Assembly (NCBI RefSeq): GCF_025602895.1
Contig: NW_026516323.1
Span: forward strand, 1-64,000
DNA: 64,000 nucleotides
Direction of reading: 5' to 3'
DNA from: Polychytrium aggregatum
Lineage: Eukaryota > Chytridiomycota > Chytridiomycetes > Polychytriales
This document shows, piece after piece, positions 11,266 through 19,963 of the stretch. The position numbers and the translations under genes were made by a program. Below the pieces are notes generated by a model. That model was not told the origin of the DNA, did no database searches, and saw only the letters and a list, made by a program, of their open reading frames with translations. Numbering within the stretch: the stretch's first letter is position 1; every line of letters begins with the position of its first letter.

Positions 11266-11872
11266 TGTTGGTGGTCTGACCATGTTGCTGCGGCCCTGAT
11301 CCGAACCACCCCACCTCCCTCCTGTCTATGTCACTGTTCCCGCCGCTCTATCGAATAGCTTCTGTGTATCTCTCTTCAACTGTCGTCCTCTTTCGTTCGA
11401 TTCCTCCCTTTCTCCCTCGTTGCTCACCGTCCGGCCGTCCAAGCGGCGCGTCTGGATTCGTGTATTTGATTTGGAAATGCGTATGGCTCCTATTGGCCTT
11501 GCAAACAATATAATCCTTAGTTTTCTGTGCTCATCACAGCTCCTGATTCCTGACAGCCAGTGTCCATGCGTGCAATCATCAGGCGGACCTCACTGATGCG
11601 GATTGGTAGTGCAGTGAGCAAGCGGGATGCGAATGCTGTGTGCTGCACTCCACAAAACAGCCGGTGATCCGCGAGGCCGGTTTTCCTCGGCTGTTGGAGC
11701 CATGTTTCACTGCCGATCGGCGGGGCAGCTGCTTCTGGGAAGACCCGACGTGACAGGGCAGAGAAAATACGCGTATATCATGTGCAACAACAAGCGTGTT
11801 TGTGGCGCGTTTGGCACCCGATTTTGAATCTTGACCTTTGGCCGCTGGCACAAGGAACTGGCGCTGCGCAAA
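11266..11872. other. intergenic: 3' UTR of ferric reductase gene and promoter of kinase gene
   Basis: No coding signal. A T-rich stretch at 11320-11420 and the sequence caatataatcc near 11505 could serve the 3' end of the upstream transcript. Confidence 0.4.
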
Positions 11873-11878
11873 TATATA
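11873..11878 (+). promoter_or_regulatory. TATA box of the kinase-Sel1 gene
   Basis: TATATA lies about 55 bases before the ATG at 11932. It makes the downstream ATG, rather than the in-frame codons upstream, the likely start. Confidence 0.6.
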
Positions 11879-11931
11879 CCCGGCTTTCCCCCCCCCGGAC
11901 TTTCCCCGGCGCTGCTTGCTGCCTCATCGCA

Positions 11932-14667
11932 ATGTTTTTGGACATCCCTATCGTCATCCAAGGCTTGACCTCCACCACCCGCAGGACCCCCGATGGCCCT
12001 CTCAAGAACCTCCAGAGCCTGGCCCTGAGGATCTTCTCGGCCCTGGACCTGTTCGACGAGAACCAGAAATCCTGGGCGGCCTTTGTCAACCTCTCGTACG
12101 AGGTCATCGAGGCCCTCGCCCAGTCGTCTTCCCAGAGCCCGGTCTTTGTCCAGCAAGTCGACTGCATCGAGCGCTTCCACAGCGACCTCTTTGACTATGT
12201 CCGGGAGCTCCAGACCTTCGTCAAGGTCGAGCGCCTGGCCAGGGGCATCCGAATCCGCAAGAAGGTCAAGGAGCTCTGCAAGGGGCTCGCGTCGCTCTGG
12301 CAGACGTGCGCTGCGACGTTGTCCATCCCCCAGCCCATCATCCTGGACGAGGCTGAGCTCCAGCAGATCGTCCGCGGAGATGAGGAGGAGGAACAGGTTC
12401 TCATCGCCAACATCACTGCACTCCTCCGCCAAGGCGACGACAAGGCGCTCGATCGGGCCGGCATCCGCCTCGATGCGCTTCCATGGCAGATTCGCCAAGC
12501 CACCCATGCCCTCCTCAACCTCGCCAGCGACGCTTCTGTTTCCAAGCCCATCATCGACGACACCATCGTGCCGCTTCTCGAGCTGCTCCGCAGGCGCTCG
12601 CCCGTGGCAAAGTCGATGAAGAAGGAGAACTGGCGCATCCATCCGAGCGAAATCGCGGACCAGTCGAGTACCCCGATAGCCACAGGCAGCTTTGGCGAGG
12701 TCTACTTTGCCCGCTACTACGGCACCGAGGTGGCCATCAAGCAGCTCATGACCAGCTACAACGAAACCGAGATTGCAGACTTTCGCCACGAGGTCGATTT
12801 CTGGCATCAGCTTGTCAATCCCCACATCCTCCCGCTCCTTGCTGCGTGCGACGCCGTCAACCGGCCCTTTGTCGTGTCGCCGTTCATGAAGAACGGCAAC
12901 CTCCGCACCTACGTCTCCGACGCCTCCAACGTTCGCCCCATTGAAGACAAGCTTCGATTGATGTACCAGGTTTCCTTGGGCATGTGCTATCTGCACGGCA
13001 AGAACGTCGTCCACGGCGACCTCAAGCCCCAGAACATCCTCCTGGACTCCTTCTTCCAGGCCATCATCTCCGACTTTGGCATGGCTCGCACCCGGTTCAC
13101 GTCGGCGGCCGCCACTGTCGGAAGGGCCCGTCAGATGAGAGGAGGTGCCGTTAGCTACATGGCTCCGGAGATGCTGGACGACGAGAACCCGATGGGCACC
13201 TCGAAGCGCACAGATGTCTTTGCCTTTGGGGTCACCCTCTACGAAGTCCTCAACAATGGAAAGCCTGTGTGGGTCACGACCGACGGCAGACCAATGGGTC
13301 CCAGCGCCATCGAGCGAAAGATCAGCAGCGCCAGTCGCCCCCTGAGAATCGACGGTATTCCTGATCCGGTCTGGGATCTGATCGAGCGATGCTGGCACCA
13401 AGACTACAACGCACGCCCCAAGTTTAGCGACATCCTGCGCTCCCTCGAACCGTACAAGGAGGCCGCTGGCCCTGTGCCGGTCGTCATCAGCCCAGTTCCA
13501 TCAAAGAGCCAGACCGGCACTCCGAGGCTGTATCCCAGTATCAGCAATGACGCCCGACCCCTCAGCACCGACAGCGGCAGCAGCTTCACAGGCTTTACCG
13601 ACTCGCCGTCGATCGCACCCAGCCAGAGCATCACCGAATCGCAGCTGGGCAACCTGCCCAGCATCGTCTCGCCCAGCGATCCTTATGCGGCAAGGCCGTA
13701 CGCTCCCGGTAACTTCCAGCACTGGCAGGTTCCCGTCGGAAATTCCGCCAGGGTATCCAGAGCCCCCGTCGCTCCGCATTTGCACGACGACATTGCAAAG
13801 GCGCATCCGGACGTGACCCGGCTGCTGCTGAACCGAGCCCGGAGCGGGGATGTCGAGGCGTGCCTTCAAGTCGCCAAGATCATCACAGACAACAAGCCCT
13901 CCACCGATCCAATGTGGGGCGTGGCCGCGCAGCTCTTCCAGATCAGCGCAGATCAAGAAAGCGTCGAGGCTTACTTCTACCTCGGGTGGTTGTACTTTGC
14001 CGGCGTCGGTGTGGACCAAAGGGATGCCGACGCCATGTCGTACTGGAACGAGGTCTATCAAAAGTCCTACGATCCCATCCTCAAGCCGATTGCCACCCTG
14101 ATGCTTGGCATGATGCACTACTTTGGTCGCGGTGGACATCGCGATAAGCGCAAGGGTATTGCTCTGGCTCGCGAAAGCAAAACAGGCAACTTCAGCCTTG
14201 GCGAGAACTGCCTGGCTCCTGACCATCTCATCGCCCTGGTCACCCCGATGACGCTCAAGTTCTTCCGGCTGTGCCAGCTTGGCTCGAGCACGGACAGCGT
14301 TTGCCGGTTCCTTGAAGCCGTATGCCTCGTCAACGGATTCGGCACCGCTCGAGACGCAACCAAGGCCGTCGGCATCTTCCAGCAGCTCGCCGATGATGGC
14401 CAGGACACCAGCCAGCACTGGCTCGGGCGGTGCTATGGCTTCGAGTGGGGCGTGCCCAAGAGCACCGAACGATTCTTCCGCTGGTGCAACCAGGCTGCAT
14501 ACCAGGAGGACCCGTTCGCCCAGTACACCGTCGCTCAGTGCTATATAGATGGCACCGGGGTTCCCAGAGACAAGAAGAAGGCCGTCGAGTGGTTTGAGAA
14601 GGCCGCCAACCAGGGCCACACCGGCGCCAGGAACAAACTGAGGCTCAACATGATCGGCTTCCTCTAA
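11932..14667 (+). CDS. TKL-type protein kinase with N-terminal helical domain and C-terminal Sel1 repeats
   Basis: Intronless, 911 residues. Residues ~1-200 are predicted from sequence pattern to be long amphipathic helices (LKNLQSLALRIFSALDLF, then IRKKVKELCKGLASLW), comparable in plan to the MLKL/HeLo-like bundle that often precedes fungal TKL kinases; this assignment is inference. Residues ~245-505 form a complete kinase: glycine loop ATGSFGEV, VAIK lysine, catalytic loop HGDLKPQN, DFG, and the APE-type motif MAPEM. HGD instead of HRD is common in tyrosine-kinase-like kinases of these fungi. A Ser/Pro-rich linker leads to Sel1-type repeats (~637-911) with the LGxxYxxGxGVxxDxxKAxxW pattern, a helical scaffold. 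The Sel1 block is closely related to the separate Sel1 protein at 58.7 kb. The next gene downstream is the SAM-TIR-NACHT-WD40 gene, on the same strand and 356 bases away. Confidence 0.88.
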   Translation: MFLDIPIVIQGLTSTTRRTPDGPLKNLQSLALRIFSALDLFDENQKSWAAFVNLSYEVIEALAQSSSQSPVFVQQVDCIERFHSDLFDYVRELQTFVKVERLARGIRIRKKVKELCKGLASLWQTCAATLSIPQPIILDEAELQQIVRGDEEEEQVLIANITALLRQGDDKALDRAGIRLDALPWQIRQATHALLNLASDASVSKPIIDDTIVPLLELLRRRSPVAKSMKKENWRIHPSEIADQSSTPIATGSFGEVYFARYYGTEVAIKQLMTSYNETEIADFRHEVDFWHQLVNPHILPLLAACDAVNRPFVVSPFMKNGNLRTYVSDASNVRPIEDKLRLMYQVSLGMCYLHGKNVVHGDLKPQNILLDSFFQAIISDFGMARTRFTSAAATVGRARQMRGGAVSYMAPEMLDDENPMGTSKRTDVFAFGVTLYEVLNNGKPVWVTTDGRPMGPSAIERKISSASRPLRIDGIPDPVWDLIERCWHQDYNARPKFSDILRSLEPYKEAAGPVPVVISPVPSKSQTGTPRLYPSISNDARPLSTDSGSSFTGFTDSPSIAPSQSITESQLGNLPSIVSPSDPYAARPYAPGNFQHWQVPVGNSARVSRAPVAPHLHDDIAKAHPDVTRLLLNRARSGDVEACLQVAKIITDNKPSTDPMWGVAAQLFQISADQESVEAYFYLGWLYFAGVGVDQRDADAMSYWNEVYQKSYDPILKPIATLMLGMMHYFGRGGHRDKRKGIALARESKTGNFSLGENCLAPDHLIALVTPMTLKFFRLCQLGSSTDSVCRFLEAVCLVNGFGTARDATKAVGIFQQLADDGQDTSQHWLGRCYGFEWGVPKSTERFFRWCNQAAYQEDPFAQYTVAQCYIDGTGVPRDKKKAVEWFEKAANQGHTGARNKLRLNMIGFL

Positions 14668-15023: not shown

Positions 15024-18000
15024 ATGCTGATCCACGAACGCCGCGCACCAGCATCCTTCGACCTGTTCCTGAAGCATCATGGCCTGGAGCGCAACAGGGA
15101 GCTGCTGCTGCAGCACGAGTACGACACCATCGACCTGGTGGGTCTGGCACTTTGCCCGCTGCCACTGCCGCCCCTGGCCCAACCCGCATCGCTAACATGC
15201 ACAGGCTCCGACAGGTGCTGGAGCTGACAGAAGCGGAAATGAAGGCCATCGGAATGGTGGGCGGAGCCATCCGCAAAGTCCAACGGGCCCAGCGACAAAG
15301 CCGGGACAATCGGGACAGCCTATTTCTGCCGTCAGCGAAGGGCCTCTCGACACAGGAGAAGCAGTGCGGCAGCACCGCCGCGGAGGTGGTTGTCTTTGAG
15401 CCGGAATACTACGAGCCAGCTACGGTAATCCACGACTGGAGGTGCCAGCTCGACAGCAGCGAACACGATATCTTCGTGAGGTAGGATGTCCTCCAACTCG
15501 TACCGGACTTGTCTCGCTTGGTTGTCTCTGCCTCTTTGCCTCGCTTGAGAGCAGCAGCGCTCACCCTTATTCATCCCCGCCAGCTATCGCAGCTCGAGCG
15601 AGAGCGACAGCGCCAACATGCTGGTGGCGTCCCTGGTCTCTGGCAAACGGAAGGATCTCTCCATCCATCCCTTTCTCGACCACCTCTGCCTGCACGACAG
15701 CCAAGACTGGGAATGCGGCTTCATCAATGCACTGCACAACTCGCCGGTGATTGTGCTGCTCCTCTCGGAGCGGGGCCTGGAGCGTGTGCGCCAGGCTCAC
15801 ACAACCCCAGACAACCTGCTGCTCGAGGTGGGCTGCGTCCCTGCACCGCCTTTGACAAATCCTCTCGCACGTTAGCCATATTGCGGCGCATTTGCGCCAT
15901 GCCCGTCCATCTCTCGAGCCTGCCTCCCGATTCTGCTCCTCCGGGCTGTGCCTCTCCCATCTGATGCCCGATCCACGCCCGATCCACGCCCAATCCACGC
16001 CCAATCCCAACAGATCCAGCACGCCCTCAAGTTGGCGAAGGATTCTGTTCTCTTGAACATCTCGGTCGTCATCCAGCCCATATTCATGTGGTCCAACAAG
16101 ACCATCGACAACAAAAAGTACTCGTGCAAATACCTTCCCGATCCCGAGCACTTCCCAAACTTTCCACCGGCCCACAAGAAGAGCCCCCTCTTTGACGACC
16201 GGCCCATGACCGTGCGCCAGACGATCAGGGAGATCCTAAAGCTCCAGGCCCTTGATGCGGTCGATGGAAATGCCCTGAAGCGGTGAGTTCACATAGCCCT
16301 CGGTGAGCATGAGCGTACAACGGGCTCATCTGCGCCGGATCGGTCCCTGATGGATTGGCATCGTTTGCAGACTCGTCCCCAACCTTCGCGAGCTGTGTGC
16401 CAAGACAACCAAGTTCAAGGAGATTGCAACACGCCAGTTCGAGTCGATTGTTCTCTCTGCCCACGAAGACTGCGACCTCGTCGCCTTGCTCGACCCCATC
16501 GACTTTGACCAGGACAGGAGGGCTCTCGAGGATCTCTTCATGAAGGGAACACGCCAGTGGCTCTTGACCGACATTACCTCCTGGGTCAACGCCGACAACG
16601 ACGACCCGGTCCTGTGGGTCAACGCCGTCGCCGGCACCGGCAAGTCTGTGTCCGCCGCCCAAATCGCAAGTCTTCTGACCGCCAGCAGCCAACTGGTGGC
16701 ATCCATCTTTCTCAAGTACAACGATACCCGCAAGAGCAATCCCCGCATGGTGCTGACCACTATCGCCTACGGCCTGTGTCGCTGGTATGCCCCCATCGGT
16801 CGGCGACTGCTGGCGACTGTGGCAAGGTCGGATGGCGAACGAACTATCACAAAGGACGATCTTGACAAGATGAGCATCCCCGAGCTGTTCAAAACTGTGA
16901 TTGCCGATCCACTCGAAGCCATCGGCGACTACAGACCCAAGGGATCGGTGATGATCCTGGTGGATGCACTCGACGAGTGCTCTCCGCGCGACCAGCTGCT
17001 CAGCCTGCTCGCCGGGCGGTTCGTCGAACTGAACAAGACCCGTCCGTGGCTCAAGTTGCTGCTGACATCCCGTCCCGAGGCCGACATCAAGGCAGCATTC
17101 GATGGAGTCCCAACCAAGACGATCGAGCCCTCGAGCGGCAACAACGTTGACGACTTGAGCATATACATTGGCTCTCGGCTCAAAAAATACAATCTCCCAA
17201 AGGCAGAGAGGGACAGTATAGTAAGCTCGATCATCTTCAACTCTGCCCACGAGAGCCACGGACTCGAGGACCATGGTGCAAGAGGCGATCAGTCCAAGAC
17301 ATTCGTGTGGATCAACCTGATCCTCAATACCCTCTCCGATATCGCTAGGGACGGCCCAGTGACGCTCGCCGCGATCAAGGACATCAACGACAGCGTCGCG
17401 AATGTCGATCAGCTCTACCAAAAGACATTCGACAAGATCTACTCGCAGGCGAGCCACCCGGCCGAGCTGGTCACCGTGATCTCGGCCATGGCCACGGCAC
17501 AATCGGTCCTGACGCCCCGGATAATCTCCGGGATCTTCAAAATCGATCTTCGTGTCGTGCAGGATGGTCTCGCCAGACTCGCGCTTGTCCTCGACCCCGG
17601 CGTCAATGGATCGACGGCCGACAGCCACGTCGAGTTTAACCACAAGTCCGTGGCCGACTACCTCCTTGACTACTCGTTCGGCGAGCCGTTCCATGTGTCA
17701 AGCCAGTTCCATCTGGTCTTTGCCAAGGGCTGCCTCGACGTGATCCTCGCGCACGATCCAGTGATCAACATCTGCGACATCTATGACCTCCACACCGAGA
17801 TACCCGACTTTGACGACAGAGTCAGCGACAAGATTGCCCCGTCGCTCCGATACAGCGTCGCCCACTGGATTACGCACTTTGTATGGCGTCTCGATACGGC
17901 GCCAACGCTGGCATTGACAATTCATCAGCTCTGGTCGACGGGAGCCACGTCGCTCCTTTCCAAACTGCTTTCAACCCACGTGTTCTTCTGGCTCGAGTGC

Positions 18001-19963
18001 GCATCGCTGATGAACGTCATCAAGCCAGTCATCGAGCAACTGGCCGTCCTCCGGCGCGTCGTCACCAACGACGACCGCAATTTCGGCCAAGTTGCCAAAG
18101 CCCTCGTGGTCGATGTCTATCGGTTCATCCGAGAGTTTGCCGACCCCGTCATCAAGAGTGCGCCGCAGGTGTACAACTCTGGATTTGTGTTTACGCCCAA
18201 GGAGACACTTCTCTACAAGACATATGCTCCTCAGATCGAGGACAGGGTTCCGTTTAGGGTGGCTGCTGGACCGCCGTCTTCCTGGGATCCGTGCGTCGCT
18301 ACTCTCTCGGGCCATACCGCCGAAGTAATCGCCGCAGCAATCTCTCCGGATACGAAAATGGTTGTGGCGGGCTCCCGAGATGGAGCCATTCGGGTTTGGG
18401 ACGCCGTTTCGGCCCAGTCCAAGTTCTCGATCGAGGGACATGCCTATCCCGTCAATGCCGTTGCGGTATCACCAGATGGCAACATGATCGTCTCTGGCTC
18501 GGGTGATCGAACAATCAAGATCTGGGATGTGGTCATGGGCCATCTGATCGACGTTATCGAAGGCCATACCGATGCCGTGTCCTCGGTCGCCATATCTCCA
18601 GATGGCAAGTCATTGGTGTCGGGCTCATACGACACGACCGTCCGGATCTGGAATCTCGAGACCTTGGAGCTGGAGGCAAGGTTAGTCGGGCACACAGACT
18701 CGGTACTGGCCGTTGCCTATTCCTCGGATGGCAAGCAGATCCTGTCCAGCTCGGGAGACGCAACCGTGAATATCTGGGACGCCGTGACCAGAAGATGGAA
18801 GATTGTGCTCGTGGGCCACAGAGACTCGGTCTCGTCCGTGACGATCTCGCCCGATAGCAAGTGGATTGTGTCCGGCTCCTATGACAAAACGGTCCGAGTG
18901 TGGGACGCCGAGACAGGCCAGGCAAGGTTGATGCTGGAAGGACACACAAGCTGGGTCACCCAGGTTGCCATCGTGCCTCACGGGCAGTCGATTGTTTCCG
19001 GGTCGTCGGACCATTCCATCAAGGTTTGGGATCTCGCAACCGGCCAGTTACGGACAACTCTCAAGGGACATTCCAGCCATGTGAACTCGATTGCTGTGTC
19101 ACCGTACGAAAGGTGGATTGTATCGGTCTCGGATGACAAGACTCTGAAGGTCTGGGATCCCGATACAAGCGGCGTCGAGCAGTCTGCAGATGGGCACACC
19201 GGCCCCGTTACCACGGCAGCGGTTTGCCAAACTGGAACTGTGATGGTGTCGGGATCCTACGACCAGTCGCTGAAGCTCTGGGACACCGGAACTGGTCGTC
19301 TCTTGCAGACGCTGAAACAGCACAGCCAATGTGTGCGCTCGGTCTCCATCTCTGCCGACGGAGAGTCGATCGAATCGCTGGACTATGACGGCAACCAAAT
19401 TCTCTGGAGTAACACCGAGGATGGGTTTGTACCATTCAGTCAGCATCGCCAGAATCGCGACTGGACAGATACACCGCTGCCGCCGTCGACTTGGTCGCAA
19501 GTTGTCGATGAAGCCCAGTGGATCCGCCATGGCCCGCATATGATCAAGGTCCCGCATGCCTTTTTCAACTGGGACGGGCAGAACTCGTTTCAGGGCGACC
19601 GGCACCGATGTACTGCAAGCGAGAGTATCATATTCTGGGGTATCGCCGCCCCTTACTTTCCGCTGGTGATTCACGTACGTTGCATCTGTGTACCAAGCAT
19701 GGACTGCATGGACTGCATGGGCTGCAGTGCTCGATCGGGCTGTCACTAATACTTTATCACAACAGCCAAGCTATCGAAACAGCACGGAAGCCGGCCAAGA
19801 CGTGCCCACCTCGCCAGATCAAAGTCTGCAGCAAGACTCTCCAGGAAGCAGCTCCCACGCATCAACCAGCTACGGTCCTCAAACAAGCACACCTCCCCCG
19901 CTGCAAAAGACCCCGTCGAAACTGAGCCTGCGATTTCCCAAATTATTCAGGAGTGGTCGTTGA
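15024..19963 (+). CDS. SAM-TIR-NACHT-WD40 protein (NLR/STAND-type signalling receptor)
   Basis: Six exons (15024-15137, 15215-15480, 15584-15827, 16014-16282, 16371-19674, 19766-19963), all joining in phase, give 1464 residues. In order: a SAM domain (FDLFLKHHGL to LELTEAEMKAIGM); a TIR domain that starts HDIFVSYR and continues FLDHLCLHDSQDWECGF and SPVIVLLLSE, with E170 in the position expected for the NADase glutamate; a NACHT NTPase with P-loop NAVAGTGKS (~382) and Walker B ILVDALDE (~492); a winged-helix-like and helical region; nine WD40 repeats (~938-1311); and a basic, Ser/Pro-rich tail. STAND proteins of this plan sense a ligand with the repeats, oligomerise through the NTPase and switch on the N-terminal effector. 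TIR effectors cleave NAD+ or signal; SAM next to TIR recalls SARM1. The start is uncertain (see upstream spacer). Enzyme activity is inferred, not shown. Confidence 0.88.

Follow-up and report, generated by a model that had tools for sequence, protein, structure and literature searches.

Does the locus at positions 15024-19963 (plus strand) of the window, a 64,000-nucleotide stretch of the Polychytrium aggregatum genome (contig C26:1-64000, NW_026516323.1), encode one protein in which a SARM1-like SAM-TIR effector is joined to a NACHT-WD40 sensor, and is such a protein an oddity or one of many? Our sequence comparisons make it probable that the window gene belongs, as a diverged member, to a large fungal family of NOD-like receptors (NLRs) with the order SAM (one or two copies), TIR, NACHT, helical region and WD40, in which the WD40-NACHT half would cluster a SARM1-like TIR NADase, presumably leading through NAD+ cleavage to the killing or arrest of the cell.

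Gene structure and domain composition

The six exons of the window gene, once spliced, form an uninterrupted frame of 1464 residues, with the following features.

15024-15137, 15215-15480, 15584-15827, 16014-16282, 16371-19674 and 19766-19963, plus strand: the six exons, stop-free when joined
15138-15214, 15481-15583, 15828-16013, 16283-16370 and 19675-19765, plus strand: the five introns, five of five GT..AG
15057-15292, plus strand: SAM, residues 12-64, interrupted at residue 38 (phase 0) by intron 1, Pfam SAM_2 above cut-off
15461-16094, plus strand: TIR, residues ~121-235, interrupted at residues 127 and 208 by introns 2 and 3, placed by the family profile and SARM1
15711-15713, plus strand: E170, the NADase glutamate proposed in the preliminary description
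15825-15827, plus strand: E208, encoded by the final codon of exon 3 and aligned with the SARM1 glutamate, NADase candidate
16546-17073, plus strand: NACHT (NPHP3_N) core, residues 357-532, with a GTGKS P-loop at 386 and DECS at 499, placed by Pfam
17074-18309, plus strand: NACHT-to-WD40 region, residues 533-944, within the exon 5 open frame, helical according to the preliminary description
18310-19443, plus strand: nine 42-residue WD40 repeats, from residue 945, placed by eye, Pfam and a unit scan

This structure agrees with the preliminary description, in which five in-phase junctions gave one protein: introns 1-3 recur in paralogues, intron 4 fits them, and intron 5 is only suggested. Specifically, all 24 distinct loci where alignment reached both sites share introns at residues 127 (phase 2) and 208 (phase 0); 20 of the 24, a set that includes the window's own locus, also have an intron at residue 38 (phase 0, within SAM) together with SAM itself. 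The comparison used a purpose-written spliced aligner on fetched loci (designated by L numbers), with the window protein as query and its intron positions unused; of rows with identical products only the first was counted, and L030 and L049 were left unscored. Because paralogues share both the residue and the phase of the introns within SAM and TIR, the predicted SAM-TIR-NACHT unit is a single gene. Furthermore, in most paralogues the TIR match stops at R298 and the NACHT match begins at 299 or 300, as expected for intron 4, and similar C-termini in L044, L045 and L048, seen by eye, suggest that intron 5 and exon 6 may be real.

The start codon is uncertain: upstream of 15024 the frame stays open and holds more ATGs. 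In four of the nine printed paralogue loci (L017, L041, L042 and L046) a stop lies close upstream with no ATG after it, so that a 5' exon seems needed. A second copy of the window gene, on contig C201, has one difference in 3324 compared bases, a sign that the assembly may include, in part, both haplotypes or duplicates.

The domain assignments follow from Pfam, with the TIR placed through the family profile, and they bear out the claim that SAM, TIR, NACHT and nine WD40 repeats belong to one gene. The proposed check with hidden Markov models of SAM, TIR and NACHT succeeded in part: SAM_2 (22.2 bits, cut-off 20.5) and an NPHP3_N-type NACHT (94 bits at residues 357-532) score above their cut-offs, and SAM_1 (22.3 bits, cut-off 23) and TIR_2 fall below theirs. 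WD40 lies far above its cut-off; nine repeat starts with 42-residue spacing are seen by eye; Pfam passes 8 stretches, and the separate unit scan likewise 8. No ARM repeats were found among the best 25 of 60 Pfam families or among the 4 families listed for residues 1-299. The window gene thus has the make-up of a fungal NLR: a P-loop NACHT ATPase, C-terminal WD40 repeats and an N-terminal SAM and TIR.

A large NLR family in the genome

The assembly searched comprises 64.68 Mb in 418 contigs and is apparently partly two-haplotype. With the TIR segment as query, 187 exon matches were obtained, of which 150 were listed and merged by hand into at least 87 loci; the NACHT segment gave 101 rows, corresponding to 97 loci, and the SAM segment 69 rows, all 69 with a TIR or NACHT locus downstream of them. 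At 82 of the 87 listed TIR loci a NACHT follows within 1.5 kb downstream on the same strand. For fifteen of the 97 NACHT loci the listing has no TIR; of these, two (L043 and L048) later had TIR exons aligned and three adjoin PF13676 matches. At least 87 of the 97 NACHT loci therefore carry a TIR, and TIR is the common NLR effector in this genome; the earlier view of the TIR-NLR as a rare oddity finds no support. As a rough guide to the number of distinct genes, 75 different score tuples occur among the 90 NACHT rows that are close to full length. A general NPHP3_N search returned 106 rows, all but five of them, by eye, at loci of the NACHT-segment search.

Among 25 NACHT pieces placed in a tree, the nearest is 80% identical to the window gene, and the tree did not fix the place of the window gene. 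No HET domain was matched in the genome, in a search that had no positive control. Radial-spoke and chitin-synthase N-terminal families are both present; the organism is therefore a flagellated fungus. When contigs were scanned for a prokaryotic source, the SAM-TIR alignment yielded 30 pattern matches and tblastn found no relative; the scan started from two short peptide patterns and is weak as evidence of absence.

Stop codons occur within some TIR matches (L021 and several other rows), marking pseudogenes or further introns. The genome also holds other TIR proteins. L001 is a single 402-residue frame with the best PF13676 score in the genome (63.9 bits), and lies outside the family by the NACHT search. 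A second type of TIR receptor, with no introns in the TIR and an NB-ARC-like P-loop, is found at L006, L039, L050, L051 and L052, of which three were scanned with Pfam:

L006 379-2214, minus strand: TIR_2 above cut-off, no NB-ARC
L039 304-2037, plus strand: NB-ARC above cut-off, no TIR_2
L051 358-1599, plus strand: NB-ARC just under cut-off, TIR_2 under cut-off

The SAM-TIR half resembles SARM1

SARM1 (TIR-1) is an animal NAD+ hydrolase with the order ARM-SAM-SAM-TIR. A profile (A1) of 10 family SAM-TIRs, each 40-55% identical to that of the window (L021 left out), was compared with the sequences of the PDB, and SARM1 chains fill the first 17 rows, with E values from 7.2e-8 to 1e-5. The displayed alignments cover the TIR and, weakly, the SAM; after SARM1 come Caskin and Eph-type SAM chains. 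A second profile (A2), built from five TIRs of the intronless type, also places SARM1 first (E 4.4e-4). Pfam applied to the ten A1 members finds, at E 0.1 or better, TIR_2 in 10 of 10 (best 1.3e-8), SAM_1 in 6 and SAM_2 in 6.

The order of domains points in the same direction, SARM1 chains among the PDB matches being entered under the name SAM-SAM-TIR. Two complete SAMs precede the TIR in 5 of the 24 distinct loci (L013, L014, L024, L036 and L037), each SAM being split by the same intron, and stop-free spliced paths for SAM-SAM-TIR were obtained in three of three loci tried, the best path in L024 trimming the start of the second SAM. L021 has an additional second half of a SAM. The proposal that an NLR here carries an effector half like SARM1 is thus sustained: among solved structures SARM1 matches the family profile best, and some paralogues have two SAMs before the TIR.

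With respect to catalysis, both phmmer and the family profile align E208 (in NLLLEIQHAL) on the glutamate of the SARM1 HKEI motif, which we take to be E642, the catalytic one. All 27 rows keep E208, two of them being of the intronless TIR type; the count leaves out L009, L010 and L049 and keeps L021, which has one stop in its spliced product, with X. E170, named as the NADase glutamate in the preliminary description, is E in 22 of the 27 rows and A, K, R or Q in the other 5, by which it is ruled out as the catalytic residue; E208 fits better, both by the SARM1 alignment and by its conservation.

Variation in the WD40 repeats

Paralogues L056-L058, whose SAM-TIR products (as L036-L038) are at most one residue apart, carry 8-10 regular 42-residue WD40 units that are nearly identical save at a few positions. 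The near-copy arrays of L056-L058 differ in unit number, and 47- and 49-residue units occur in two of them. Across 79 units of eight arrays, the most variable unit positions are 23, 5, 4, 7 and 25, and positions 5, 7, 23 and 25 show 63 combinations of residues.

In the HNWD genes of Podospora, codons 7, 9, 25 and 27 are described, in the excerpts available of the two reports, as under strong positive selection, forming two pairs around the conserved codons 8 and 26 (PMC1805685, PMC2873952). With an offset of two, these are unit positions 5, 7, 23 and 25, around V6 and D24; the match was set after the entropies had been computed, by pairing two pairs each around a conserved residue. Position 4 is as variable as the four, yet lies outside them.

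The ratio of nonsynonymous to synonymous differences per site (pN/pS) was obtained by a Nei-Gojobori count, which uses non-independent unit pairs, few synonymous sites at the four codons and no likelihood test. At the four HNWD positions it is 1.83 in L056 and 2.12 in L057, versus 0.19 and 0.27 elsewhere; in L058, pN is 0.34 and pS 0.00 at the four positions, and pN/pS is 0.22 elsewhere. Arrays L041-L043, L046-L048 and L059 give 0.74-1.43 versus 0.27-0.37. When the 298 unit pairs from ten arrays are pooled, with the near-copies L041 and L059 both counted and with too few similar pairs in L040 and the window gene, the values are 1.13 at the four positions and 0.31 elsewhere. By these counts, the WD40 arrays of L056-L058 appear to vary at the positions that are under positive selection in HNWD.

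Proposed mechanism and alternatives

In the mechanism that we propose, a foreign or changed-self cue would be read by the WD40 propeller, and the NACHT ATPase would then oligomerise. SAM-TIR units would be brought together, with SAM contacts helping as in SARM1; the clustered TIRs would cleave NAD+ using E208, and the loss of NAD+, or a nucleotide product, would kill or arrest the cell.

Several observations weigh against assigning the window gene to such a family and mechanism. TIR_2 scores 13.6 bits in the window protein, under its cut-off of 28, and membership among TIR proteins comes only via the family. As a single query in phmmer, the window protein reaches SARM1 only at E ~0.3, and a single SAM-SAM-TIR paralogue as query found no SARM1 at E 0.1 or better, with one chance match at E 0.075. 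The window gene has one SAM only, and no SAM was found in 4 of the 24 distinct loci, namely L035 and L040 (more than 1 kb upstream read), L044 (311 bases) and L048 (734 bases). Its WD40 units are diverged, with a mean identity of 0.41 and no HNWD-like pattern. Finally, the E208 rows are mostly paralogues of one genome, some of them near-copies.

Three other explanations were weighed. The TIR might act as a scaffold, drawing in other TIR proteins as partners and leaving NAD+ uncleaved; numerous TIRs of animals serve as adaptors, and the genome holds possible partners (L001, L006, L039 and L050-L052). We regard this as unlikely, since every row compared keeps E208, the two of the other TIR type among them, and the solved protein closest to the family hydrolyses NAD+. 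The family might instead be a developmental, stress or self-recognition regulator that acts through NAD+ signalling, its WD40 variety reflecting different endogenous partners rather than defence. The absence of a hypervariable pattern from the WD40 repeats of the window gene itself would suit such a role, but the high copy number and the near-copies that differ in their WD40 units form the pattern of recognition genes, and a regulator seems distinctly improbable.

That the SAM-TIR and NACHT-WD40 exons are two adjacent genes wrongly joined is a thought invited by the spread of the TIR over three small exons. Their order and spacing recur at nearly all listed TIR loci, however, intron positions and phases recur as well, and intron 4 lies at the same residue in most paralogues; a false join is accordingly very improbable indeed. 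The single-gene receptor with a candidate NADase effector stays our preferred reading.

Comparison with known systems and wider meaning

The family shares with SARM1 the succession of SAM and TIR, the SAM-SAM-TIR order in some paralogues, the first place among solved relatives of A1 and the alignment of E208 on its glutamate. It differs in having NACHT and WD40 after the TIR, where SARM1 has ARM repeats in front, and the window gene further differs in its single SAM and low single-sequence similarity. Like the Podospora HNWD proteins (HET-E, HET-D and HET-R), it combines an N-terminal effector, a NACHT and 42-residue WD40 units, and in three paralogues (L056-L058) varies at the same four positions; unlike them, it has TIR and SAM in place of HET, and the repeats of the window gene are diverged, whereas HNWD units are near-identical. 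Plant TIR-NLRs also place a TIR on an ATPase of the STAND class (signal transduction ATPases with numerous domains), but combine NB-ARC with leucine-rich repeats, where the window gene has NACHT and WD40; in the PDB searches, plant TIRs were absent from the A1 hits and weak among those of A2.

In the portions accessible of the published accounts, NLRs that combine NACHT with WD repeats are established for fungi (PMC4986451), TIR is said to be reported in NLRs of Chytridiomycota and TIR-like NLR effectors in Pezizomycotina, and SAM_Ste50p stands among the listed NLR N-termini (PMC9815663). These receptors resemble the window gene in carrying a TIR effector on a fungal NLR; the account of them in that portion is without a SAM beside the TIR, family size or WD40 diversification (PMC9815663). 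Fungal TIR-NLRs are described in excerpt as a small group, and the allorecognition NLRs of Dikarya as using HET domains of unproven enzymology (PMC10197012); choanoflagellate SARM1 homologues, again in excerpt, keep the conserved glutamate (PMC6040629). No title on SAM-TIR NLRs of fungi was found among open-licence PMC texts. On these partial accounts, TIR on chytrid NLRs is already in print, and the SAM-TIR form of the window gene is a variant of that kind.

More tentatively, and with doubt somewhat outweighing confidence, an early-diverging flagellated fungus may run most of its NLRs, in dozens of copies, through one SARM1-type SAM(-SAM)-TIR NADase executor, joined to WD40 sensors whose diversification resembles that of HNWD. 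If true, the executor of SARM1 and the sensor of HNWD would be combined in one molecule, and within opisthokonts the SAM-TIR death module would either predate animal SARM1 or run parallel to it, and in fungi would be tied to nonself recognition. Work on fungal NLRs has largely been based on Dikarya; 97 NACHT loci, at least 87 with TIR, in a flagellated fungus would place TIR-based NLR signalling near the fungal base. The family would also offer a natural SAM-TIR-NLR for asking how NACHT and SAM assembly activates a TIR, and a second lineage with predictable, testable WD40 specificity positions.

Neighbouring gene

Just upstream of the window gene and on the same strand, positions 11668-14667 (plus strand) hold a 999-residue open frame for a Tyr/Ser-Thr-type protein kinase with Sel1 repeats.

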